Source of the DNA: Corallium rubrum
Lineage: Eukaryota > Cnidaria > Anthozoa > Scleralcyonacea > Coralliidae
Reading direction: 5' to 3'
Length of the DNA: 64,000 nucleotides
Assembly: GCA_964035015.1 (NCBI GenBank)
Contig: OZ036006.1
Coordinates: forward strand, 62,001-126,000
Below are positions 24,475 to 47,693 of the stretch, piece after piece; within the stretch, counting starts at the first letter, position 1; every line of letters begins with the position of its first letter. Below the pieces are notes generated by a model. That model saw only the letters and a program-made list of their open reading frames with translations, did no database searches and was not told where the DNA came from. The translations under genes were made by a program, and so were the position numbers.

Positions 24475-24939
24475 TCAAGGTAGTTCATCTTTTTGTTCCA
24501 CAATCATTTTGATGTTCTCTGCAGCTGCTATGGCTGCTGCACGTTTAGGAACAAATTCCATTGCTTTCGGATTCAGCTGCTGTTCTTCCGATGAAACTTC
24601 ATCACACGCAAGCTCTAAGGGATATAGGTGCTGAATGGGTCTTTCTAGTAAGCCTTTGCTTGTTTCCACTTGAACTGCTCGCACTACACCGTCACGTCCT
24701 GGGTATGTTGCACGTACGATCGCCAATGGCCACTTCCCCCTGTTCTTCTCGTCTGACTTGACAAGCACCACGTCTCCCTCAGATACTTCAAACTGAGTTC
24801 TTCCATGATTGAGATTGTGTCTTTCTCTCAAAGCAGTCATGTATTCTTTCGCCCATCTTCGCCACATGACATCCTTACAGGACTTTAGATATCTGGCTCG
24901 CTTCCGAAGTCCCTTGTCCTCTTCGTGCCACGGCTGCTG
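24475..24939 (-). pseudogene. BEL pol C-terminal segment (DUF5641 domain)
   Basis: About 154 codons downstream of an in-frame TAG (24940-24942). It contains KRARYLKSCKD and MWRRWAKEYMTALRERHN, then DVVLVKSD and RPIQHLYPLE, matching the DUF5641 region that closes BEL integrases. It shares frame with the integrase core before the stop, so a single nonsense codon separates them. No initiation is expected at the internal ATG. Confidence 0.85.
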
Positions 24940-25504
24940 CTACGGGAGTGAACTTGACCTCTGGAACAGAAACGTCGAGGGGGTCAGTATAGGCATTTCC
25001 ACATCATCTTCCACGTAGGACAAGGGTCTTCTATTGATTTGGATTTCCACGTCCAGAATCACCTCACTCAATTCGGACCAGCTAAGCGTCGCAGCTCCAA
25101 TCGTCTTGTACATGGCTCCCTTCACCACTCCGATGAGGCGCTCGAATTGTCCGCCCCACCAAGGGGCTCGGGACAAGTTGAACTTCCACCGTATTTCTTG
25201 GTTCTCCAAGAACCCTTGTAACCGCTCATCCTTGCGGACTTTGGCTAACCACCTCGCCGTCTTGACAAATGCTCCCCCGTTGTCTGAGTAGATCACTCGG
25301 GGCCGACCACGGCGGGCAATGAGACGCTTCAAGGACGGGATGAAGGTTTCGGTTTCCATATTAGGCAACAGTTCTAGCTGCACCGCTCGGCTCAAACTGC
25401 AGGCGAATAGGACGAGATATGCTTTTCCTTCTTTCTTGCACGTTTTCTTGTATTTAATGGGCCCAGCAAAATCTACTCCAATGACTTCAAACGCCGCGTT
25501 CCCT
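24940..25504 (-). pseudogene. BEL integrase catalytic core
   Basis: The first catalytic Asp lies in a GVDFAGP context near 25475, encoded just past the stop of the preceding pol frame. The second is in YSDNGGAF and the Glu in GGQFERLIGVVKG, so the D-D-E triad is present but spread over a frame break. Integrase would insert the DNA copy into the genome. The segment ends at the TAG at 24940-24942. Confidence 0.87.
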
Positions 25505-27595
25505 TCAGTTCTGTCTTTCGGGAGGATTCCAGGTGGCGGTGTACGTACTGCTATTTGCTCGGAATCTTTTGCAGCCCGGACACTCGCTAATGATTGCTTT
25601 GGTCAACTGCTTCAGCTTCGGAATCCAGTATCTTTCTCTTACCACCGCCATAGTGAGATTTACTCCTCCATGAAGGGATTCGCAATGCAATCGCTGTACT
25701 AGCCTTCGGGTAAATTGAGCTTCACTGGGCAAGTATATGGGATACTCCCCTTGGATTCTTCCTCTGCATCCTGCTAGTCCTTGGGCATTGACTTGTAGAT
25801 TGAGCTGGCTCTTCCTCTGCTCGTAGTCTGGTGTCGTGCTATTGCGGAGCTGCACGCGCTTTATCCACCAAGTGCGGCTGTCGTCCACCTCTTCTGTGGT
25901 TAAGGGGCCACTCCGCTTGGTTTTATTTTTGCAGTTATACAGGAATCTCTCGATCCACGAACGGATTCGCAGGCTGCGGCGTAGAGGATGCTTAACTAGC
26001 AGCTCGTCAAGGGTGTTAGTTGCCGTTTCGGCTTGTGCCACACACAGGACATTCTTGATAATTTTGGCTTCTGCCTCTGAGGCTGGAGAGCTCTTGGAAA
26101 CTGGGTTCTCCGGCCATTGGTCGGAATTCTGAAGCCACTTCGGTCCGTTCCACCAAATTGTCGACTCGCTTGTGGATCCGCCACGGCTAGCCAAGTCGGC
26201 AGGGTTATCTTGGGTGGGGACATGTCTCCACTGGATTTCTGGGTGTTCCCGGATCTTTCGCGCTCGATTCTCCACGAACTGGTTGTATTGCCCATTTCCA
26301 CAGATCCAGTATAGGGCGACCGTACTGTCAAGCCAGCCGTAGATGGTTGGTTCAGGGAGGCCTTGTATGGCGTTGCGCACGTTTGACACCAGATTCGTTG
26401 CGACGTGGGCGGATACCAGCTCGAGACGGGGCACGGTTAGGTCTTGCTTAGCCAGCCGGGCTTTGGCTGCAATTAGACGTTGGGTATTCCCTGAATGTTG
26501 TCGGACCACGGAATACACTGCAGCGCCAACCCCTTGAGTTGATGCGTCACCAAACACATGCAATTCGACACTCGAAACCGATTCTTTGTAGTCCACAATA
26601 GGGCGGGGCACTGTTTCCCCCGTTGGTAGTGATTGCTCCCACTTCATCCAACGTCTTCTCAGCGACCCGTCTAGCTCAGCGTCCCAAGGCAATTTTGCAC
26701 AGCAGACGTCTCGATAGATGAACTTCCCTTCCAAGGTCATCGGCGAAACCAACCCTAAGGGATCGTAGATCTTCGCTAGCTTCCTGAGGATTTCACGTTT
26801 CGTTATTTTGGCGACGGCGCCAGGGAAAGGAACGGTTAGAGTGTCCTTTGACTTTTCCCATTTCAACCCAAGCATCTTTGATTCGTTTGGCTGTACCCCA
26901 AACTGTTGCTTCGCGTAGGATTGTTCGTTTTCATCTTTGGGCAAGTCTGCTGCCTTCTCCAATTCCTTGACGTTTGAATTCCACTTGTGTAGTTTGAAGG
27001 TTGCGTCGTTGAAAATCTCGATGGCTCTTTCCTTGCGCTCGTTAGCTTGATCGATAGTTTGTCCTCCGGTAAGTAAATCGTCTACGTAGAGACTTCTGCG
27101 TAACTCGAGGACCACCTCTGGATATTTCTTCTCCCAGGCATCTAGATGACAGTCGATCACTCCCCCCAAGAGGAAGGGAGATGGGGCCAGTCCAAACAGT
27201 GCTCGCGTGAAACGTAATGTTTGTAGCTCTGAATGTTCTCCACACCTCCAGTGAAAGCGGAGTGCATCGCGCTCATTCTCTCTTATCCGTACTTGCAAAA
27301 AGGCTTTCTGAATGTCAGCGGTGACTGCGACAGGATACATACGTTGGTGAACGAGAATGTCCCACAACTTATTCTGGAGAGGCGGTCCAGGGTACAGACA
27401 CTCATTCAATGACGGAGCGGTTGGGTTCTCTCTGGCCGATGCGTCGTACACGATTCTTAACTTTGTACTCTCGGAAGATTCTCGGATTACAGGCTTGTGG
27501 GGTATATAAAACTCTACCCTTCGCTGGGGTGTTGGCTGCTTCGACCACTCCTTCCTCCTTCTGTTCGTTGATGATGGCATCGTACGCGTTAACAA
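25505..27595 (-). CDS. pol: BEL pol: reverse transcriptase, RNase H, integrase zinc region
   Basis: Open for 696 codons. RT palm motif YVDDLLTGG is at about residue 170, preceded by RIVYDASA and PVAVTADIQKAFLQV. The RNase H region begins near VFGDAS at about 342. The integrase N-terminal His/Cys zinc region (HCESLHGG ... CPGC) is at about 635-672. The first ~25 residues before EFYIPHKPV are not RT-like, because the true upstream frame is that of the gag-protease ORF; the switch lies near 27505-27510 at a GGG run. The ORF ends early at 25505 after another one-base shift near an AAA run. Confidence 0.92.
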   Translation of the reverse strand: MLTRTMPSSTNRRRKEWSKQPTPQRRVEFYIPHKPVIRESSESTKLRIVYDASARENPTAPSLNECLYPGPPLQNKLWDILVHQRMYPVAVTADIQKAFLQVRIRENERDALRFHWRCGEHSELQTLRFTRALFGLAPSPFLLGGVIDCHLDAWEKKYPEVVLELRRSLYVDDLLTGGQTIDQANERKERAIEIFNDATFKLHKWNSNVKELEKAADLPKDENEQSYAKQQFGVQPNESKMLGLKWEKSKDTLTVPFPGAVAKITKREILRKLAKIYDPLGLVSPMTLEGKFIYRDVCCAKLPWDAELDGSLRRRWMKWEQSLPTGETVPRPIVDYKESVSSVELHVFGDASTQGVGAAVYSVVRQHSGNTQRLIAAKARLAKQDLTVPRLELVSAHVATNLVSNVRNAIQGLPEPTIYGWLDSTVALYWICGNGQYNQFVENRARKIREHPEIQWRHVPTQDNPADLASRGGSTSESTIWWNGPKWLQNSDQWPENPVSKSSPASEAEAKIIKNVLCVAQAETATNTLDELLVKHPLRRSLRIRSWIERFLYNCKNKTKRSGPLTTEEVDDSRTWWIKRVQLRNSTTPDYEQRKSQLNLQVNAQGLAGCRGRIQGEYPIYLPSEAQFTRRLVQRLHCESLHGGVNLTMAVVRERYWIPKLKQLTKAIISECPGCKRFRANSSTYTATWNPPERQN

Positions 27596-29645
27596 CTCCG
27601 TCTCGCTGTAATTTCTTGGTAAGGCTCTGGAGGCGGCGCAGGCTTCCTAGCTCATTACTCGGTAAAGGTGGATGACTTCCCTTCCAGGGTAGAGCAGCTT
27701 CGTACCAGCCATCCACATCTCTACGCAGTTGTTCTTTGAATTCATCGTAGACCACACTTTGGTCATGCTCGGCTGTATCTTTAAGTCCCAAGACATCCAA
27801 ACGACACAAATCTTCATAATCCGATTGGCTGGTTTGGGTTAAAAGCATCACTTTGCGGTCGAATTCTTGGCCTGGGGACATGATAAACCACCCAAGTTTG
27901 GTGAATTCTGCGACAGGCTCATACTCTTTGCCGACTCTTGGAGGAGTGTTGGTTTTGATTCTGGCGTATTCCCCACTGCCAAGCACTATGTGAACCGGAA
28001 GCTGAGACTTTGTGGCACGTTCGGTCACTGTAATTCCCTCCAAGTGTGAGTAGTCGCTGATCAGTTCTCCATAGTTGGGATTATCCACAGACAACAACTC
28101 GGCTTTGTCGACTTTCATCATTCTGACTTCCATCTCGTAATGACGGTCGAGCGATTCTATCTTCAACTGATAGGTTTCAAGGCGGACCTGTTTGTTGCAC
28201 ATCAACATGTCGATCTGCTTCGTCTCCACTTCAACGGGTTTAGCCTTAAGAACGTGGATTAATTTAGCTGAGATGTAGGAGCTCCCTGCACCAGAGTCAA
28301 TCAAAGCCCTACACATTACTCCACCAATTCTCACTGTGACAACAGGAAATATTCCCTCCTCGCTCTTGGTCGTGGTGTACACCTTTTCTTCTTTTGTGGT
28401 CTGGTCTTCTTGGTCACAAATAGAGGTGTGATGTCGCTTATCGCAGCGTTGACAGGTAGATTTACTTGGACAGTGAGCAGCTTTGTGGGTCCCTGCTGCG
28501 CAATTGAAACATAGACGTTGTTTCGCTAACGCTTGTTTGCGGTCGGACGTCGTTATCACCTTGGAACATTCGTTGGCCTTGTGGTTTGTGTCTCGGCAAT
28601 ACACGCACCCTCGTACGCGAGTATTGAACAGTCTGTCTCGGCGACGTGGTGATTGATCGTCGACAGGTTGCTTGTCGATCGGATTACGTCGGGTCCACAA
28701 GGTCAAGGCTTCGGTCAGCTTCACGAAGTCCCAACTTTCCCACTCTGGATCTGATCGCACTAAATCGCCTCGAATCCCTGGCAGCTTGTCTAGCGTCATC
28801 GCCACATTTCCATTTATTTTCTCCAGACTTCCCATCGTCTCCAGTGACTGCACTGCGTAAGACAAGTTCTCACAAAACTCGTGAATTCTTTTGATGTTGA
28901 CATTAGGGATTATCGGCAGGTCAAAAATCTGTTTGGTATATGCTTTGATAATCTCCGAGTCCTTCCCGTATTTATCCTTCAATATGCTTTTAGCTCTGTT
29001 ATAGCCTTCATTGGTGAATGGTAGCGCTTCGACAGTTCTACGGACTTTAGTGTGAAGTAACTCACGCAAATAGGAAAACTTTGTCACATTTGGCACACTC
29101 GTCTTGTCGATCGTCTCACTAAATTGTCCCCAGAATCGAGGCCAGTCTTGGTAAGACCCATCGAACTTCGAAATTTCGAGCTTCGGTAGCTTGGCTTGCA
29201 CTCCTTTCGTCATCTGACTGGCGTTGGTTAATTGATCTTCAGGCGATGTCTTTGTCGTCGCTTTGGCGGCTTTCAACTCTGCTTGAAACTTCATTCGTGT
29301 TTCATGAAGTTCGTGTTCAAATCTGAGTTCTTGTTCTTGTACTTTCCGTTCACTATCCGTTTTAAAGTCGTCTCGGAATCTTCGCAAACGGACCACTTCA
29401 ACATCAGCTTCGGCTAATTTCTCCTCAATCTCTGCGACCCAATTTCCGATGTCATTGAGGTCTTCCTTTGCCGCAATCTTTAGAGCCTCGACTTCTCGCT
29501 TACTGTTATCCACTTCGGAGATGGTCGTTTTTAGCGCGTTTTCATGGCGTTCGATAGCTTCATACCTTTGCGCGTTGAGTATCTTTTCCGTTCTCCCCAT
29601 AGTTATCTTAAGCTGGACAAGCTTGGTTTGAAGCGTTTCTTCCAT
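27402..29645 (-). CDS. gag-pro: BEL gag and protease, start of RT
   Basis: 747 codons from the ATG at 29645. The first ~140 residues look coiled-coil (Glu/Lys-rich heptads), followed by a gag capsid-like domain with FDGSYQDWPRFWGQF. Three Cys-x2-Cys-x4-His zinc knuckles follow at about 345-405 (CVYC, CFNC, CQRC), then a retroviral-type aspartic protease with ALIDSGAGSS at about 447. The last ~35 residues, after VVEAANTPAKG, run in the wrong frame because RT continues in the next frame. Confidence 0.92.
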   Translation of the reverse strand: MEETLQTKLVQLKITMGRTEKILNAQRYEAIERHENALKTTISEVDNSKREVEALKIAAKEDLNDIGNWVAEIEEKLAEADVEVVRLRRFRDDFKTDSERKVQEQELRFEHELHETRMKFQAELKAAKATTKTSPEDQLTNASQMTKGVQAKLPKLEISKFDGSYQDWPRFWGQFSETIDKTSVPNVTKFSYLRELLHTKVRRTVEALPFTNEGYNRAKSILKDKYGKDSEIIKAYTKQIFDLPIIPNVNIKRIHEFCENLSYAVQSLETMGSLEKINGNVAMTLDKLPGIRGDLVRSDPEWESWDFVKLTEALTLWTRRNPIDKQPVDDQSPRRRDRLFNTRVRGCVYCRDTNHKANECSKVITTSDRKQALAKQRLCFNCAAGTHKAAHCPSKSTCQRCDKRHHTSICDQEDQTTKEEKVYTTTKSEEGIFPVVTVRIGGVMCRALIDSGAGSSYISAKLIHVLKAKPVEVETKQIDMLMCNKQVRLETYQLKIESLDRHYEMEVRMMKVDKAELLSVDNPNYGELISDYSHLEGITVTERATKSQLPVHIVLGSGEYARIKTNTPPRVGKEYEPVAEFTKLGWFIMSPGQEFDRKVMLLTQTSQSDYEDLCRLDVLGLKDTAEHDQSVVYDEFKEQLRRDVDGWYEAALPWKGSHPPLPSNELGSLRRLQSLTKKLQRDGVVNAYDAIINEQKEEGVVEAANTPAKGRVLYTPQACNPRIFREYKVKNRVRRIGQREPNRSVIE

Positions 29646-29725
29646 AATTTGTTGTTGTCACAATGTCGCTTGACGAAGACTGCGTTTCTTTGCTTTGTTT
29701 CAAGCTTTATCTCACTCTCACTGCA

Positions 29726-31222: not shown

Positions 31223-32560
31223 AACAGTAGAGTGAATTAGACCGCTTTAGACTGTTTTAGTTTGAATTAGACTGCTTTAGAGTGAATTAGACTGCTTTAG
31301 AGTGAATTAGACTGCTTTAGAGTGAATTAGAGTGCTTTAGACTGCTTTAGAGTGAATTAGACTACTTTAGACTGCTTTAGAGTGAATTAGACTGCTTTAG
31401 ACTGCTTTAGAGTGAATTAGACTGCTTTATAGAGTGAATTAGACTGCTTAAGAGTGAATTAGACTGCTTTAGACTGCTTTAGAGTGAATTAGATTGCTTT
31501 AGAGTGAATTAGACTGCTTTAGAGTGAATTAGACTGCTTTAAAGTGAATTAGACTGCTTTAGAGTGAATTAGAGTGAAGTAGACTGCTTTAGAGTGAATT
31601 AGACTGCTTTAGACTGCTTTAGAGTGAATTAGACTGCTTTGGACTGCTTTAGAGTGAATTAGACTGCTTTAGAGTGAATTAGACTGCTAGAGTGAATTAG
31701 ACTGCTTTAGAGTGCTTTAGAGCGAATTAGACTGCTTTAGAGTGAATTAGACTGCTTTAGACTGCTTTAGACTGCTTTAGAGTGAATTAGACTGCTTTGG
31801 ACTGCTTTAGAGTGAAGTAGACTGCTTTAGAGTGAATTAGACTGCTTTGGACTGCTTTAGAGTGAATTAGACTGCTTTAGACTGCTTTAGACTGCTTTAG
31901 AGTGAATTAGACTGCTTTAAAGTGAATTAGACTGCTTTAAAGTGAATTAGACTGCTTTAGAGTGAATTAGAGTGAAGTAGACTAGCTGCTTTAGAGTGAA
32001 TTAGACTGCTTTAGACTGCTTTAGAGTGAATTAGACTGCTTTGGACTGCGTTAGAGTGAATTAGACTGCTTTGGACTGCTTTAGAGTGAATTAGACTGCT
32101 TTAGACTGCTTTAGAGTGAAGTAGACTGCTTTAGAGTGAATTAGAGTGCTTTAGACTGCTTTAGAGTGAATTAGACTACTTTAGACTGCTTTAGAGTGAA
32201 TTAGACTGCTTTAAAGTGAATTAGACTGCTTTAGAGTGAATTAGAGTGAAGTAGACTGCTTTAGAGTGAATTAGACAGCTTTAGACTGCTTGAGAGTGAA
32301 TTAGACTGCTTTGGACTCCTTTAGAGTGAATTAGACTGCTTTAGACTGTTTTAGAGTGAAGTCGACTGCTTTAGAGTGAAATATTAGACTGCTTTAGACT
32401 GCTTTAGAGTGAATTAGACTGCTTTGGACTGCTTTAGAGTGAATTAGACTGCTTTAGAGTGAATTAGACTGCTTTAGACTGCTTTAGAGTGAATTAGACT
32501 GCTTTAGACTGCTTTAGAGTGAATTAGACTGCTTTAGAGTTAATTAGACTGCTTTAGACT
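31223..32560. repeat. Decamer satellite: AGACTGCTTT and AGAGTGAATT
   Basis: About 1.34 kb of two related 10-mers in varying order, most often alternating (a 20-bp period). TTTAGACTGC doublets and variants such as GGACTGCTTT, AGTGAAGTAG and AGTGCTTTAG recur in blocks, suggesting amplification of longer segments. No ORF or flanking inverted repeat is evident. Confidence 0.95.
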
Positions 32561-33267
32561 GAAAATTTCGCGAATTTTTTACCCAAAGAATTAGCGAAAA
32601 AGATTGCTATACGGGAGAATTTTTGACGACTATTTTTATAGGCCAAATGTTGCCCAAAATGTCCCCAAATGTTGCAATGTAATTTTGTTAAAAATTATCC
32701 ACAAATTTAATAACATGTTACACGCAACAATTTTGTTGTTGCTGCATGAAGAATCATCATTAAAATACGTGTAACACAATTTTCGAGTGGTGAACAAACC
32801 TACTTTGTGTTGCCATAGCAACAGTGCAAACATTTTTGAAAAATTAACTTTGTTATGTTTATTTTTAACTTTTAGTGCTAATTGCAAATGGGATAAAAGA
32901 GATTTATGCTGGGTTTGTCTGTTCCCTGTATTTTGAACATTGAGAGTTAGTCTTAATACTAACATCTACCCGAAGAATTCACTTTGCGGATTGGGGTGAG
33001 ACTGCAAGGCTTTATCATCAATGGCGCAAGGATGTAAAGAAGAATACTTCAAAATTAGGTAAAAACCCAAATTTGAACATACTAAAAAGCGCTCTAAATA
33101 AAGCGCTTATGTCCAGCTCAAGAGCAAGAATTGATGAGAAGTATACTTCATCAGGTGTAACTTGTCGGTCCTACGAGATTCTGGATGACAATACCTGGAC
33201 AATTTTACAGCAGTGTTACGTATGTACAGGTTAAGGTTTTGTTTTACCAGATTTTATAATAAGCGCA
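32561..33267. other. Non-coding stretch, no gene seen
   Basis: Moderately AT-rich unique sequence between the decamer satellite and the MITE at 33268. The minus ORF at 32636-32965 has no family resemblance that I can see. Confidence 0.5.
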
Positions 33268-35000: not shown

Positions 35001-35201
35001 CTATTGCTATAAAAGTAGCGTGCTGCGTAGGCAGTGTAGAAACAACAATCGAAATATAGTAAGGTTATTATAAATGATATTGGGCATTTCACTCGATTAC
35101 ATAGCATGTTCTAAGGATTTAGGGTGAAGGAAAATTCGAGTGTAGAATATATACATTTTAAGACCAAACCGGGAGCAGTTGCGAAAAATGCAACTACACA
35201 G

Positions 35202-35273
35202 GCCCTCCGGCAGGAATTGAACCCACGACCTTGCGATTCTAGTGCAATGCTCTGACCACTGAGCCACGGAGGC
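35202..35273 (-). repeat. tRNA-like SINE head, copy 1
   Basis: 72-nt tRNA-like fold: acceptor GCCTCCG with CGGAGGG, A box TGGCTCAGTGGTCAG, B box GGTTCAATTCC. The anticodon loop CTAGAAT would give AGA, but the stem has mismatches. It is embedded in a repeated body, so a SINE head rather than a gene. Confidence 0.72.
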
Positions 35274-35508
35274 CGTTGCCGAGAGCTCGATCGCGAGTTC
35301 TGTATATATAATAAGGTGGTAATGCCAGGAGAGAATTGGGTATATTATAAATGATATTGGGCATTTCACTCGATTACATAGCATGTTCTAAGGATTTAGG
35401 GTGAAGGAAAATTCGAGTGTAGAATATATACATTTTAAGACCAAACCGGGAGCCAGGCATTACCACCTTATTATATATACAGAACTCGCGATCGAGCTCT
35501 CGGCAACG

Positions 35509-35580
35509 GCCTCCGTGGCTCAGTGGTCAGAGCATTGCACTAGAATCGCAAGGTCGTGGGTTCAATTCCTGCCGGAGGGC
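35509..35580 (+). repeat. tRNA-like SINE head, copy 2
   Basis: Appears to be the exact reverse complement of copy 1 at 35202-35273. It is followed by the SINE body (TGTGTAGTTGCATTTTTCGC and CCCGGTTTGGTC). The conceptual translation VAQWSEHCTRIARSW is an artefact of the tRNA sequence. Confidence 0.72.
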
Positions 35581-35785
35581 CTGTGTAGTTGCATTTTTCG
35601 CAACTGCTCCCGGTTTGGTCTTAAAATGTATATATTCTACACTCGAATTTTCCTTCACCCTAAATCCTTAGAACATGCTATGTAATCGAGTGAAATGCCC
35701 AATATCATTTATAATATACCCAATTCTCACCTGGCATTACCACCTTATTATATATACAGAACTCGCGATCGAGCTCTCGGCAACG

Positions 35786-35857
35786 GCCTCCGTGGCTCAG
35801 TGGTCAGAGCATTGCACTAGAATCGCAAGGTCGTGGGTTCAATTCCTGCCGGAGGGC
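35786..35857 (+). repeat. tRNA-like SINE head, copy 3
   Basis: Same sequence as copy 2. Its body is interrupted two bases after the acceptor end by the satellite-bearing element and continues at 41062. Confidence 0.72.
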
Positions 35858-35959
35858 CTGTGTAGTGATGGTTGTCCAATACTGTAGCAAGCATACGGAT
35901 CGTTAGTTTCGTGAAATTTTGGTTACCATCGGACAAGTCGTTTTGTCATGACGACTCGA

Positions 35960-38615
35960 AAAAGCAGAGTATCAATCCGTACGAGTCGTAACGGATGGTA
36001 AGCTGATTGTCGATCCGTAAATATAGTGTGTCGATCCGTACGGGTTGTGACGAACCGTATGCTACGTTTCACCATCCGTGAATATAAGTAGTATCGTGCG
36101 GTGTAGCTAAGGTAGCCCTCAAAAAAGTTGTCGATCCGTACGAGTCGTAACGGATGGTAAGCTAATTATCGATCGGTAAATATAGTGTGTCGATCCGTCC
36201 GAGTCGTAACGGATGGTAAGCTAATTCTCCATCCGTAAATATAGTGTGTCGATCCGTACGAGTCGTAACGGATGGTGAGCTAATTCTTGATCCGTAAATA
36301 TAGTGTGTCGATCCGTACGAGTCGTGACGAACCGTATGCTACGTTTCACCCTCCGTGAATATAAGTAGTGTCGTGCGGTGTAGGTAAGGTAGCCCTCAAA
36401 AAAGTTGTCGATCCGTACGAGTCGTAACGGATGGTAAGGTAATTCTCGATCCGTAAATATAGTGTGTCGATCCGTACGGGTCGTAACGGATGGTAAGGTA
36501 ATTCTCCATCCGTAAATATAGTGTGTCGATCCGTACGAGTCGTAAAGGATGGTAAGCTAATTATCGATCCGTAAATATAGTGTGTGTCGATCCGTACGAG
36601 TCGTAACGGATGGTAAGCTAATTCTCCATCCGTAAATATAGTGTGTCGATCCGTACGAGTCGTAACGGATGGTAAGGTAATTCTCGATACGTAAATATAG
36701 TGTGTCGATCCGTACGGATCGTGACGAACCGTATGCTACGTTTCACCATTGGCGAATATAATAAGTATCGTGCGGTGTAGCTGAGGTAGCCCTCAAAAAA
36801 GTTGTCGATCCATACGAATCGTAACGGATGGTAAGCTAATTCTCCATCCGTAAATATAGTGTGTCGATCCGTACGGGTCGTGACGAACCGTATGCTACGT
36901 TTCACCATCCGTGAATATAAGTAGTATCGTGCGGTGTAGCTAAGGTAGCCCTCAAAAAAGTTGTCGATCCGTACGAGTCGTAACGGATGGTAAGCTAATT
37001 CTCCATCCGTAAATATAGTGTGTCGATCCGTACGAGTCGTAACGGATGGTAAGCTAATTCTCGACCGGTAAATATAGTGTGTCGATCCGTACGAGTCGTA
37101 ACGGATGGTAAGCTAATTCTCCATCCGTAAATATAGTGTGTCGATCCGTACGGGTCGTGACGAACCGTATGCTACGTTTCACCATCCGTGAATATAATAA
37201 GTATCGTGCGGTGTAGCTAAGGTAGCCCTCAAAAAAGTTGTCGATCCGTACGAGTCCTAACGGATGGTAAGGTAATTCTCCATCCGTAAATATAGTGTGT
37301 CGATCCGTACGGGTCGTGACGAACCGTATGCTACGTTTCACCATTCGTGAATATAATAAGTATCGTGCGGTGTAGCTAAGGTAGCCCTCAAAAAAGTTGT
37401 CGATCCGTACGAGTCGTAACGGATGGTAAGCTAATTCTCCATCCGTAAATATAGTGTGTCGATCCGTACGGGTCGTGACGAACCGTATGCTACGTTTCAC
37501 CATCCGTGAATATAATAAGTATCGTGCGGTGTAGCTAAGGTAGCCCTCAAAAAAGTTGTCGATCCGTACGAGTCGTAACGGATGGTAAGGTAATTCTCCA
37601 TCCGTAAATATAGTGTGTCGATCCGTACGGGTCGTGACGAACCGTATGCTACGTTTCACCATTCGTGAATATAATAAGTATCGTGCGGTGTAGCTAAGGT
37701 AGCCCTCAAAAAAGTTGTCGATCCGTACGAGTCGTAACGGATGGTAAGGTAATTCTCCATCGGTAAATATTGTGTGTCGATCCGTACGGGTTGTGACGAA
37801 CCGTATGCTACGTTTCACCATCCGTGAATATAATAAGTATCATGCGGTGTAGGTAAGGTAGGCCTCAAAAAAGTTGTCGATCCGTACGAGTCGTAACGGA
37901 TGGTAAGCTAATTCTCGATCCGTAAATATCGTGTGTCGATGCGTACGGGTCGTAACGGATGGTGAGCCAATTCTCCATCCGTAAATATAGTGTGTCGATC
38001 CGTACGGGTCGTAACGGATGGTAAGCCAATTCTCCATCCGTAAATATAGTGTGTCGATCCGTACGGGTCGTGACGAACCGTATGCTACGTTTCACCATCC
38101 GTGAATATAATAAGTATCGTGCGGTGTAGCTAAGGTAGCCCTCAAAAAAGTTGTCGATCCGTACGAGTCGTAACGGATGGTAAGGTAATTCTCCATCCGT
38201 AAATATAGTGTGTCGATCCGTACGGGTCGTGACGAACCGTATGCTACGTTTCACCATTCGTGAATATAATAAGTATCGTGCGGTGTAGCTAAGGTAGCCC
38301 TCAAAAAAGTTGTCGATCCCTACGAGTCGTAACGGATGGTAAGGTAATTCTCCATCCGTAAATATAGTGTGTCGATCCGTACGGGTCGTGACGAACCGTA
38401 TGCTACGTTTCACCATCCGTGAATATAATAAATATCGTGCGGTGTAGCTAAGGTAGTCCTCAAAAAAGTTGTCGGTCCGTACGAGTCGTAACGGATGGTA
38501 AGTTAATTCTCCATCCGTAAATATAGTGTGTCGATCCGTACACCCTCCGTAAATATAATAACTATCGTGTGTACTAAGGTAGCCCTCAAAAAAGTTGTCG
38601 ATCCCTACGAGTTGC
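35960..38615. repeat. Satellite with 59-bp units and a 159-bp higher-order unit
   Basis: The basic 59-bp unit runs CGATCCGTACGAGTCGTAAC, then GGATGGTAAGCTAATTCTCC, ATCCGTAAATATAGTGTGT. A related 100-bp unit contains GACGAACCGTATGCTACGTT and GTAGCCCTCAAAAAAGTTGT. They alternate as a 159-bp higher-order repeat, most regularly from 37240 to 38420. Because 159 is divisible by three, spurious minus-strand ORFs of up to 255 codons appear; these are not genes. Confidence 0.95.
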
Positions 38616-38619
38616 GACA

Positions 38620-39722
38620 GACGGTATAGAACAAACGCAATCGCTGTATGTTTCTTATTTGTAATCGTCCTCGACGGCTTCAGTACTTTACTAAGCTGGA
38701 GTAATCAAGGATTATGTAAATGCGTTCGACGCATGTGGAGCAATAGATGAATAGATGGTGAATTAAGATTGCTTTATAAACATAAAATTATGCTGTAACG
38801 AATTATGAGAATACAGCGTCTCAATAATTAACCTCAATGTTTTTGACAACGTTGATCCCGCATTCCCGTTCGTTAGTTCGATTTGAAATATGACCGCTCG
38901 ATTAGTCAGCCACAAATATTGCAAAACGTGAAGTTCGATTAGGCAAACGTGTCGCTTGAATGGAAAAATTATAGTCGCGAGGCTTGCTCGTTTCAAGTGA
39001 ATGTTGTTCGAATTAGATGTATGGCGTTCAAATGGTCACATTGAATTTTGACATAATAAACGCGCCATATGATTACCGTATGTTATTTTAATATTACGTG
39101 GTTTATATTCTGCATTGTATTTATTTGATCGGCCATGCTATAGAAAATTTCTTGCATCATTCTGCTGGCCTAATCGTGAACATTTCTACGGGCAAGCTCG
39201 TATCCACTGCTCCTGTGTCAGTCGCGAGGCAGCATTTCACTTCTGCCATTCTGATATAAAGAACTCCTAGTTTTTAAAATAACATACGGTAATCATATGG
39301 CGCGTTTATAATGTCAAAATTCAATGTGACCATCTGAACGCCATACATCTAATTCGAACAACATTAACTTGAAACGAGCAAGCCTCGCGACTATAAATTT
39401 TCCATTGAAGCGACACGCTTGCCAAATCGAACTTCATGTTTGTGATATTTGCGGCTGACTTATCTACCGGTCATATTTCAAATCGAACTAACCGGAACGA
39501 ACCGGAATGCGGGATCACCGTTGTCAAAAACATTGAGGCTAACCTTCAATTTAGACACTGTATTTTGATAATTCGTTACACCATAATTTTATGTTTATAA
39601 ACCAATCTTCATTCACCATTTACTGGTGGACATGCGTCGAACGCATTTACATAATCTTTGATAGTAAACTACTGAAGCCGTCGACGATATAAATAAGAAA
39701 CATACAGCGATTGCGTTTGTCA
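38620..39722. repeat. Inverted repeat between the two satellites
   Basis: The left arm, about 38624-39100 (GCAATCGCTGTATGTTTCTTA, ATGCGTTCGACGCATGT, ACAACGTTGATCCCGCATTC), returns in reverse complement at about 39270-39722 with roughly 10 percent divergence. The middle (39100-39270) is unique. No coding content. Confidence 0.87.
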
Positions 39723-39734
39723 TGGGAATATCGG

Positions 39735-40515
39735 ACAAGCGAGTCGTCATATAAGTTCATATTTCTTTAGCGTTTCTGGTGATTTTGTTTATAGTTATGA
39801 CAAGCGACGTCATATAAGTTCATATTGTTTTAGCGTTTGCAAGGTTTTTTGAGAACAAGGCAATCCTGAACACGACGTGATATATAAATCATCATGTATA
39901 TATGACAAGCGACGTCATATAAGTTCACTTCCTTGAGCGTTTGCAAGCTTTTTTGAGAACAAGGCAATCGTGTATAAATCATCATTTATATATGACAAGC
40001 GACGTCATATAAATTCATATTCCTTGAGCGTTTGCAAGGTTTTTTTACAACGAGGCAATCCTGTATAAATCATCATGTATATATGACAAGCGACGTCATA
40101 TAAATTCATATTCCTTGAGCGTTTGCAAGTTTTTTTTAGAACGAGGCAATCCTGTATAAATCATCATGTATATATGACAAGCGACGTCATATAAATTCAT
40201 ATTCCTTGAGCGTTTGCAAGGTTTTTTAGAACGAGGCAATCCTGTATAAATCATCATGCATATATGACAAGCGACGTCATATAAATTCATATTCCTTGAG
40301 CGTTTGCAAGGTTTTTTTAGAACGAGGCAATCCTGTATAAATCATCATGTATATATGACAAGCGACGTCATATAAATTCATATTCCTTGAGCGTTTGCAA
40401 GGTTTTTTAGAACGAGGCAATCCTGTATAAATCATCATGTATATATGACAAGCGACGTCATATAAATTCATATTCCTTGAGTGTTTGCAAGGTTTTTTTA
40501 GAACGAGGCAATCCT
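39735..40515. repeat. Satellite with ~90-bp units
   Basis: About eight copies of a 90-91-bp unit containing ATATGACAAGCGACGTCATA, TTCATATTCCTTGAGCGTTT, GCAAGGTTTTTT and GAGGCAATCCTGTATAAATC. The left copies are more diverged than those on the right. ACGTCATA sits in every unit. Confidence 0.94.
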
Positions 40516-41199
40516 CATGTGTCACATGCGACGTGAGAAGTTGTTATTGCTTCAACGTTTTGTAATATAAGTTGTTATTGCTTTAACGTTTCAAGGTGAT
40601 TGTTAATATGGTTTTAAAGTTACGATATTTGGCTTACCCATTGTAAATGAAGTATTTGTAATCAGTATACGAGCTGTACGATGCGTACGGATCGTAAGTT
40701 GTTTAATTTTGTAAGGGTGTCATGTGGTCGCTCAGCTGCAGTTGATTGGTGGTTGACGGATGTAACGGATCGTAAATTAAGTATTTTCAATCCGTACCAT
40801 CCGTACGAACCGTACGGATGGTAAGGTCATTTGGTGAGGATGCAATATTGTAGCTCAGCTGGAGTTCATCCGTGAAGCGCAGGCTGCGCAGCATGACGCA
40901 ATTAACGAAACGAAAATGTAGATTACGGATCGTAAATAACGTTTACCATCCGTATACGATCCGTATGAATTCACGAAACGAAAATATAGATTACGGATGG
41001 TAAATAACCTTTACGATCCGTATGAATGCGACAGTATTGGACATGTATGGATGTGTGTAGTTGCATTTTTCGCAACTGCTCCCGGTTTGGTCTTAAAATG
41101 TATATATTCTACACTCGAATTTTCCTTCACCCTAAGTCCTTAGAACATGTATAGTAAGGTTAGATATACTGACGAAACAGAGAACGTAGGAGTCTAACG

Positions 41200-46195: not shown

Positions 46196-46439
46196 AGAGA
46201 AACGTAAAGAGTAAAACAAACAACGAGCTTATATACGCGAGATAATCACGTGATAAAAATTAGCCAATCGGATAAAGGTAACCAAGACAAACTAATAATG
46301 AGATTCAAAAGAATAAGCCAATCAGAGCAAAGTAACAATAACAAATAAATAATGAGATGCGAAAGCCATTTGCTATTCTCACCATCGATAAGTTAAAAAA
46401 GGAGAGTAAAAAATAGAGAGTAAAGAATGGAGAAGTAAA

Positions 46440-46997
46440 GTGAAAACACTGTTTATGTCTGCCCTTGCTAATACAAAAACAACATCTTCAGAAGTGTTAA
46501 ATAAAAGAAAAACGTTCGTTGAGTCCATGAGGATGAATGCTTCCTTTAAGTCCCTTTACACTGTTTTTCCTGATCGTGATGGTCTTGAAGCTCTGAAGTT
46601 TTTCTTCAACAAACGCACCATTTTAGAACCTTCCACTTCTACATTACTTCGCTTGGCAGAACTTGTACTCACCCTCAAAAATTTTTCTTTTGATGGTGAA
46701 CATTACCAACAAATAAGTGGAGTTGCTATGGGTTCCAAAATGGGCCCTAGTTACGCAAACTTATTTGTTGGTTATGTTGAAAAACAAATCTTCGAACAAT
46801 ATACTGGACCACTTCCTGATTTCTTCGGGAGGTACATAGATGACTGTTTAGGAACAGCATCATGCCCACGTGTGAATTTAGAGAAATTTATCAATTATGT
46901 CAATGATTTCCATCCAGCACTCAAATTCACATGGGAAATCAGTGAAACCAGTGTGTCATTCCTTGATGTTTTGGTGTCGATTAGTGGTAATGCTTAG
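46440..46997 (+). pseudogene. Penelope reverse transcriptase, partial
   Basis: The RT motifs visible are GVAMGSKMGPSYANLF and the catalytic YIDDC, with HPALKFTWE and VSFLDVLVSI downstream. The first ~25 codons belong to the inverted terminal repeat rather than to RT. The frame stops at 46995-46997, and homology continues in another frame from about 47000, so this copy is inactive. Confidence 0.87.
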
Positions 46998-47029
46998 ACT
47001 CCGCTATTCATAAAGCTTCCAGTATTCCC

Positions 47030-47693
47030 AGTCCGGACACTTTAAAACAACCTTCGGAAAGACTTTCTGATAATAAAACTCCACTAGTTCTCACATTTCA
47101 TCCTTTCAACTATAAAGTTAAGGATATCATTAGCCGCAATTTTCACATCTTAAAGAATGACCCTGAAACATCTGCCATTTTCACTGATAACCCTTTGATC
47201 TCTTTTCGACGCAATAAAAACATTCGGGATAGTTTAGTACGCAGTGCCCTTAGAGAAAATCTACAGGCACCTGTGGGTACTACTTCTTGTTCTCGCACAC
47301 GATGCTACACATGTTCGTTTCTTGACCCTGCCACATTAATTTCGGGACCCAAATCTAATTTCACCATTCGGCATAATTTCACATGCACCTCTTCCAACCT
47401 CATTTACTGCATTTCTTGCAGTAAATGCTGCATGCTCTACATTGGTGAAACTGGCAGACATTTATCTAACAGGTTTGCTGAACATCTTCGTTCTGTGAGG
47501 AACAACGATGTTGACATGCAAGCCTGTTGCCCGACATTTTAATAATGTCAACCATCATATTTCTGACATGAAAGTTTGTGCTATCTCACCCATTTCCGGT
47601 GGTAATCATAGCCGCAAACGACAGGAAAAGCGTCTCATTTTCAAAATTGGAACCATTCATCCTCATGGACTCAACGAACGTTTTTCTTTTATT
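47030..47693 (+). pseudogene. Penelope C-terminal region with GIY-YIG endonuclease
   Basis: It contains LTFHPFNYKVKDII and FRRNKNIRDSLVRSAL, typical of the RT-to-endonuclease linker. A Cys-rich stretch follows (CSRTRCYTC, CTSSNLIYCISCSKC), then the endonuclease LYIGETGRHLSNRFAEHL. A one-base frame change near 47515 separates this from ARHFNNVNHH and the end PHGLNERFSF. The family nicks target DNA during integration. Confidence 0.85.

Follow-up and report, generated by a model that had tools for sequence, protein, structure and literature searches.

How a block of DNA made almost entirely of tandem repeats came to lie, with exact borders, inside a short interspersed element (SINE) is the question raised by a 64,000-nt stretch of the genome of the anthozoan Corallium rubrum (GCA_964035015.1, contig OZ036006.1). 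This stretch, hereafter the window, corresponds to C25:62001–126000 of the 474-Mb genome, which comprises 312 contigs. The block is a unit of 5187 bp (positions 35867–41053 of the window, plus strand) and is one copy of a dispersed group of elements that we named family 1. The analysis points, with a probability that we put at about 0.7, to a non-autonomous DNA transposon that is bounded by terminal inverted repeats (TIRs), makes 8-bp target-site duplications and contains an internal satellite, array A, whose units would be docking sites for the transposase. Units with these ends were inserted at many places of the genome, some of them recently, and took the satellites with them; from copy to copy, these satellites vary in how many units they contain and in how the units are ordered.

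The host of the unit is a tRNA-derived SINE with a tRNA-Ser head. The unit is flanked by an exact 8-bp duplication, TGTGTAGT, located at 35859–35866 on the left and at 41054–41061 on the right (both plus strand). Joining the flanks without one copy of TGTGTAGT restored the SINE, and the junction was identical to that of two other SINE copies of the window. The 20-mer of the insertion site was found uninterrupted at 35181 (minus strand), 35582 and 41054. Thus, the insertion into a SINE with an exact duplication, described in an earlier note made from the letters of this DNA, was confirmed. Three copies of this tRNA-Ser-headed SINE lie close together at positions 35050–35866; one of them is in inverse orientation and another is interrupted by the unit. 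The heads of all three were called tRNA by both Rfam and ARAGORN.

The left end of the unit (35867–35974, plus strand) starts with GATGGTTGTCCAATACTGT, and the right end (40516–41053, plus strand) contains nine subterminal ACGGATSGT motifs in both orientations. The inverted ends that had been described are formed by a 31-nt TIR at 35873–35903 (plus strand), which is 90% complementary to the right TIR at 41013–41043 (minus strand); these arms are set 6 nt (left) and 10 nt (right) inside the unit tips. Inverted repeats near both ends, kept in other copies, and a target duplication of a fixed length of 8 bp in 13 of 15 family 1 elements are the features by which class II DNA transposons are recognised. 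A comparison of the unit with the remainder of the window using BLASTN (E ≤ 1) gave no similarity, and a scan of viral contigs with an end pattern gave zero matches. The earlier statement that the unit has no gene holds for the window copy, where the only reading frames of at least 120 aa are those passing through satellite A, and does not extend to the whole group, since some other members appear to be coding.

Two satellites and a foldback fill the space between the ends. Satellite A (35975–38545, plus strand) is composed of 59-nt (~23) and 100-nt (~12) units, the 159-nt period being the sum of the two. It is followed by a degenerate last A-like unit (38546–38630, plus strand), of which positions 38567–38618 match the A2 unit of a sister family (family 2). 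The foldback consists of a left arm of 461 nt (38631–39091, plus strand), a loop of 182 nt (39092–39273, plus strand) and a right arm of 447 nt (39274–39720, minus strand), which agrees with the inverted repeat of about 450 bp seen earlier; the extents of the arms were assembled from several listed inverted-repeat arms. Satellite B (39721–40515, plus strand) has a 91-nt unit and is regular at 39883–40515 and degenerate before that. The arrays are indeed two and unlike each other, but they did not come together by chance, since the sister family has a relative of each, side by side in one element. Another array of the window, 1.3 kb long and built of 10-, 20- and 30-nt units (31228–32563), is unlike satellites A and B.

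The motif ACGGATSGT is common to the ends and to satellite A. Nine sites were counted in the right 538 bp against 0.005 expected from the base composition, and the left 108 bp held a single site. Array A contained 30, the foldback and array B none. In the 58.8 kb of the window outside the unit, zero sites were found against 0.57 expected. The resemblance of the subterminal motifs to the satellite A unit was therefore borne out.

A 414-bp probe from the right end gave at least 42 matches in the genome, the first 24 of which cover 400–420 bp at 95–100% identity, and a left-end probe gave at least 12 full-length matches at 95–100% identity; both counts are lower bounds. Both junctions were read in 15 family 1 elements, elements cut or seen at one end only being excluded. 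The 8-bp duplication was perfect in 13 of them, matched at 7 of 8 positions in one and was absent from one, and no two of the 13 perfect duplications were alike. They were found by script in the window and in C85, C1:73.8M, C141, C46:7.86M, C1:5.46M, C25:0.59M, C2, C1:7.0M, C25:11.57M and C113, and by eye at C1:58.3M; in C12 the perfect duplication lies beyond 55 GATG units, and in C8:46.2M the 7-of-8 duplication lies beyond 31 such units. The search proposed in the earlier note, for other loci where the same ends bound satellite DNA with 8-bp duplications, was thus successful, and the satellite copy number, which was to be compared between copies, differs. Because these other loci have the same ends with 8-bp duplications of their own, artefactual junctions, the concern raised at the outset, are unlikely, and both an assembly artefact and a chance juxtaposition of SINE sequences were rejected.

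The right ends of 22 copies, compared by mismatches only with gaps ignored and cut ends excluded, differed by 1.15% on average, and for 10 of the 22 the nearest copy was at 0–0.25%, which indicates that some of the movement is recent. End to end, the members measure from 2.8 to ~25 kb, nested insertions counted. At C37:10770030–10770033 (L026, L043), a cut family 1 right end abuts a cut left end, as if two copies had recombined.

The order of the parts (satellite A after the left end, then the foldback, then satellite B before the right end) is kept in all nine family 1 copies that were read along their length, namely the window copy and eight others; of the 12 kb at C1:58.3M, the initial 10 kb were read as one piece and the right end apart (L024). 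The plain layout is modified by nested insertions in C141 and C1:58.3M, by a partial foldback in C1:58.3M and by a doubled foldback–B segment in L066; some foldback was found in each of the nine copies. Satellite copy numbers vary among these copies, including that of satellite B, and array A comprises 17–42 units (1.33–2.99 kb) in the eight encoded copies. A linker of ~375–423 bp separates array A from the foldback in seven of the eight other copies, being interrupted by an insertion in C1:58.3M, and is missing from L063 and from the window copy. The latter two have 25 consecutive unit types in common (shuffle mean: 9.4) and gave the longest alignment among the pairs compared (1,814 bp; 95.5%). 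On the grounds of this shared run, of the alignment and of the missing linker, their arrays are taken as one array inherited by two insertions. The long copies C141 and C1:58.3M were considered as autonomous elements and rejected: their extra DNA is retroelement-like and does not represent a gene that recurs in the other copies. Inspection of these inserts by eye revealed reverse transcriptase frames resembling those of Copia and of long interspersed elements, and a split-direct-repeat element with an SGNH-like frame.

A genome search with the TGTCCAATACTGTNNNNNNCATACGG pattern (up to three mismatches) gave 124 matches, compared with 10 for a reversed control, and at least four end types were distinguished among the matches listed by the letters after the core. 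Family 2 was read in two elements, C53:1738460–1741281 (2,822 bp) and C18 (7,168 bp, ~3 kb of which are absent from C53). Its tips are those of family 1 and are followed by a 110-nt A2 array and a 124-nt B2 array; towards the right end, A2 is found in the inverse orientation, as several units in C18 and as one 59-bp piece in C53. The target duplication of C18 is TATTTTCT. When best aligned, the consensus units of A1 and A2 agree at 109 of 148 positions, and the B1 and B2 consensus units have in common a core with 25 of 30 identical positions; neither score was reached in 500 shuffles. In the two family 2 members, ends included, ACGGGTSGT occurs 20 and 68 times and ACGGATSGT does not occur. The ends and the A array thus carry the same version of the motif within each family, ACGGATSGT in family 1 and ACGGGTSGT in its sister, which speaks for the docking-site reading. 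Since the sister family has both a motif-bearing A2 and a satellite with the B core, the two satellites appear to be long-standing components of the element, and from the consensus units we infer that satellite B was inherited from a common ancestor of at least two families.

The further end types were read over 2 kb from one end. The third (L079) has a weak B-like piece and a different subterminal repeat, and the fourth (L080) has ACGGATCGT motifs and, behind the end, a 126-nt array with the B core. The foldback found no match in three family 2 stretches (C53, C18 and L070) or in the single ends of L079 and L080. Of the tandem repeats within long inverted ends that mark foldback, Galileo and Tetris-like elements, family 2 has A2 sequence in both orientations towards its two ends, and family 1 has motif clusters on the right only. 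Two other arrangements were seen in family 2: in L078 (C150:544650–547750), two right ends lie ~2.7 kb apart and face outward, and in L070 (1832–6243), an insert with inverted arms of ~830 bp (96%) is nested in an element; the 238-aa frame of this insert had no Pfam match.

According to the reading that we favour, the transposase would read the 9-nt subterminal motif, and satellite A, having started from this motif, would represent multiplied putative docking sites. As proposed here, such a set of sites would lead the element ends and the array to change their sequence together. The length of the array would have kept changing by unequal exchange or by repair after excision, the transposase would be supplied by rare gene-bearing relatives, and satellite B with the foldback would be structural cargo. 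The earlier suggestion that the arrays are carried by the element or grew from its subterminal repeats stands as far as the arrays lie inside a TIR-bounded unit and A repeats the motif; array B does not contain it. A number of observations weigh against this reading. No transposase was found by domain searches, within the scope given below, in the gene-bearing members. The motif switch is not all-or-none, since array A of family 1 also holds ACGGGTSGT 11 times; the comparison covers two families, and the resemblance of B between them depends on the 25/30-position core. Target duplications are missing from the family 1 element C46:38976–42734 and from C53, one of the two family 2 elements with both ends read. 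Furthermore, unit order was shared beyond 95% of shuffles in 3 of 28 copy pairs (~1.4 expected by chance), the 1.8-kb stretch common to the window and L063 is itself just 95.5% identical, and monomers from one copy resemble each other no more closely than monomers from different copies do. With so little order shared and monomers equally alike, most arrays bear no trace of intact movement. Homogenisation of monomers within copies was looked for and not seen, which would mean that arrays reshuffle faster than they homogenise.

Some of these facts would also be expected if the satellites were passive cargo, expanded by slippage or unequal exchange and without any docking role, the end motif and the array being kept alike by gene conversion. 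The scrambled order of arrays in copies whose right ends are ~1% apart, the variable copy number of satellite B despite its lack of the motif, and a third tandem repeat, (GATG)n, which grew at the element tip in two copies, are all consistent with it. However, the sister family retains a motif-bearing array together with an inverse counterpart close to its right end, the motif being altered in step, and for the Galileo transposon, tests are reported to have placed binding sites in repeats of this kind, so we consider passive cargo rather unlikely. Immobility of the unit, that is, a satellite block brought between SINE fragments by recombination or misassembly, could account for the one family 1 and the one family 2 element without a target duplication and for cut-and-joined copies such as that in C37, but it is at odds with the exact restoration of the SINE and with the identical ends and individual 8-bp duplications of 13 of 15 family 1 loci on several contigs; its probability is very close to nil. 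A separate issue, compatible with docking sites in array A, is whether the foldback is a transposon of its own that landed between the satellites in the ancestor of family 1. It occurs in nine family 1 copies and found no match in three family 2 stretches, and nested insertions are present in other copies; on the other hand, no target duplication flanking it was seen by eye, and a loop-like piece sits outside the arms, in the linker. We incline against a separate origin while giving it a serious chance.

The transposase that would act on docking sites would come from elsewhere than the window copy. Behind the B-like array of L080, a frame was found that has 120 aa in hand and 147 aa in its database twin. 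This small protein gave 17 matches in the genome, the best four of which are situated within or next to elements representing three end types, with the frame running towards the right end of its element in all four: C82 (the frame itself), C50:99066, C1:77631279 and C12:10564095. The C50 match is located ~0.6 kb ahead of a family 1 series of B, foldback, B and right end; this right end is without the tip, and of the left ends listed, the closest is 68 kb away. The C1 match is flanked by a family 1 right end (77609513) and by matches to the A array (77632716–77639154), and the C12 match, which contains one stop, lies between family 2 ends at 10560735 and 10579218. The left end of the C1:77.6M element and the second end of C82 were not found, and the fifth match, C8:12879339, had no end nearby among the matches listed. 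The small protein had no Pfam match. A single homologue was found among 5.8 billion proteins; it is 147 aa long, matches the query along its length at 100% identity and is encoded on a contig of 1.4 kb whose source is labelled lgn. A single-sequence AlphaFold model was too poor for a fold search (mean predicted local distance difference test score, pLDDT: 57). The gene-bearing relatives are possible autonomous partners. The autonomous relative with the same ends that had been called for thus has located candidates, but no transposase domain was placed in them.

The RNaseH domain of the P superfamily (PF21787; 129 matches, 145 of 145 candidates scored) and the KDZ domain (PF18758; 30 matches, 54 of 54 candidates scored) gave no match in the gene-bearing members, some of which are delimited only in part, and a diverged domain could be missed. 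The Mutator-like element (MULE) domain PF10551 (98 matches, from 150 of 223 candidates scored) and the hAT dimerisation domain (150 matches listed, from 150 of 1516 candidates scored) likewise had none there. Mutator/MULE transposons usually make duplications of 9–10 bp, a length that the 8-bp duplications do not fit; hAT transposons make 8-bp duplications, which do fit. Helitrons and Helentrons, the latter being rolling-circle elements, make no target duplication and also do not fit, so the 8-bp duplications and the inverted ends point to a TIR transposon and not to a Helentron. Miniature inverted-repeat transposable elements are short, usually under ~600 bp, and a size of 2.8 to ~25 kb does not fit them. 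Taken further, and tentatively, the elements may form a group of TIR transposons, with two families read and at least two further end types, in which the end motif and a kilobase-scale internal satellite co-evolve, a second satellite is conserved, and the mover is an unrecognised kind of transposase, accompanied by a small protein that fits into none of the known families.

The right tip of the window unit is an optional GATG (41050–41053, plus strand), which some copies do not have and which is multiplied to 31 and 55 units in two copies. Among 30 distinct right junctions of all families, TATG was found in 16, TATGGATG in 12, two GATG units in one and at least six in one; where the border was fixed by the duplication (script), TATG was found in eight and TATGGATG in four. 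The additional GATG is identical to the four nucleotides with which the left end begins. In C8:46.2M (L007) and C12 (L029), the GATG runs separate the tip of the element from the target duplication, so that the tip seeded a microsatellite. Such a tip is a further route by which a transposon gives rise to tandem repeats.

Other retroelements of the window were named by eye. Long frames at 24475–29657 (minus strand) resemble those of a BEL/Pao retrotransposon (gag/protease, reverse transcriptase and integrase), and two frames at 46410–47542 (plus strand), reverse transcriptase-like and then GIY-YIG-like, are arranged as in Penelope-type elements.

The locus offers an example, worked out in detail, of satellites that a DNA transposon passes on as part of itself, and the sister family serves as a natural experiment. 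If array A does provide a store of docking sites, the birth and spread of a satellite would follow from the biology of the transposon, and the origin of dispersed satellites would become a testable question. Among the papers listed by the literature searches made, no report was seen of an end motif and an internal satellite switching jointly between sister families. Among known systems, the CMITE elements of Acropora corals also have TIRs and no coding sequence, are able to form tandem arrays and have an internal part common to families (PMC2872659); they differ in being small and piggyBac-linked, and internal satellites are not described in the abstract of that paper. The Cg_HINE elements of the Pacific oyster, non-autonomous Helentrons, disperse satellite-like central repeats, exceptionally of two kinds per element (PMC7492417), and are similar in that a mobile element carries satellites, two kinds in one.

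In its manner of working, the Corallium element would be most readily described as acting like the Galileo and Tetris transposons. In Galileo (P superfamily, Drosophila), the THAP domain of the transposase is reported to bind sites in tandem repeats inside the TIRs (PMC3688188); these repeats vary in number, expanding and contracting, and the target duplications are 7 bp long, some copies being flanked by unlike sequences instead (PMC3573991). Variable tandem repeats and some copies without matching flanks are common to both elements. Unlike Galileo, with its 7-bp duplications and P-type transposase, the element described here makes 8-bp duplications, and its gene-bearing members gave no P-type RNaseH match. 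Tetris, a foldback transposon of Drosophila virilis, is non-autonomous, has no apparent coding capacity and makes target duplications of 8–10 bp; a 37-bp sequence is common to its tandem repeats and the outer part of the TIR, and the repeats expanded to form satellite arrays (PMC4079207). Both elements are non-coding units with duplications of similar length and satellite arrays related to their end sequence. However, Tetris is described with one repeat of ~220 bp and TIRs of up to 1,735 bp, whereas the Corallium element has short TIRs, two unlike arrays and a central foldback, and, in addition, a sister family in which the motif takes a form of its own.

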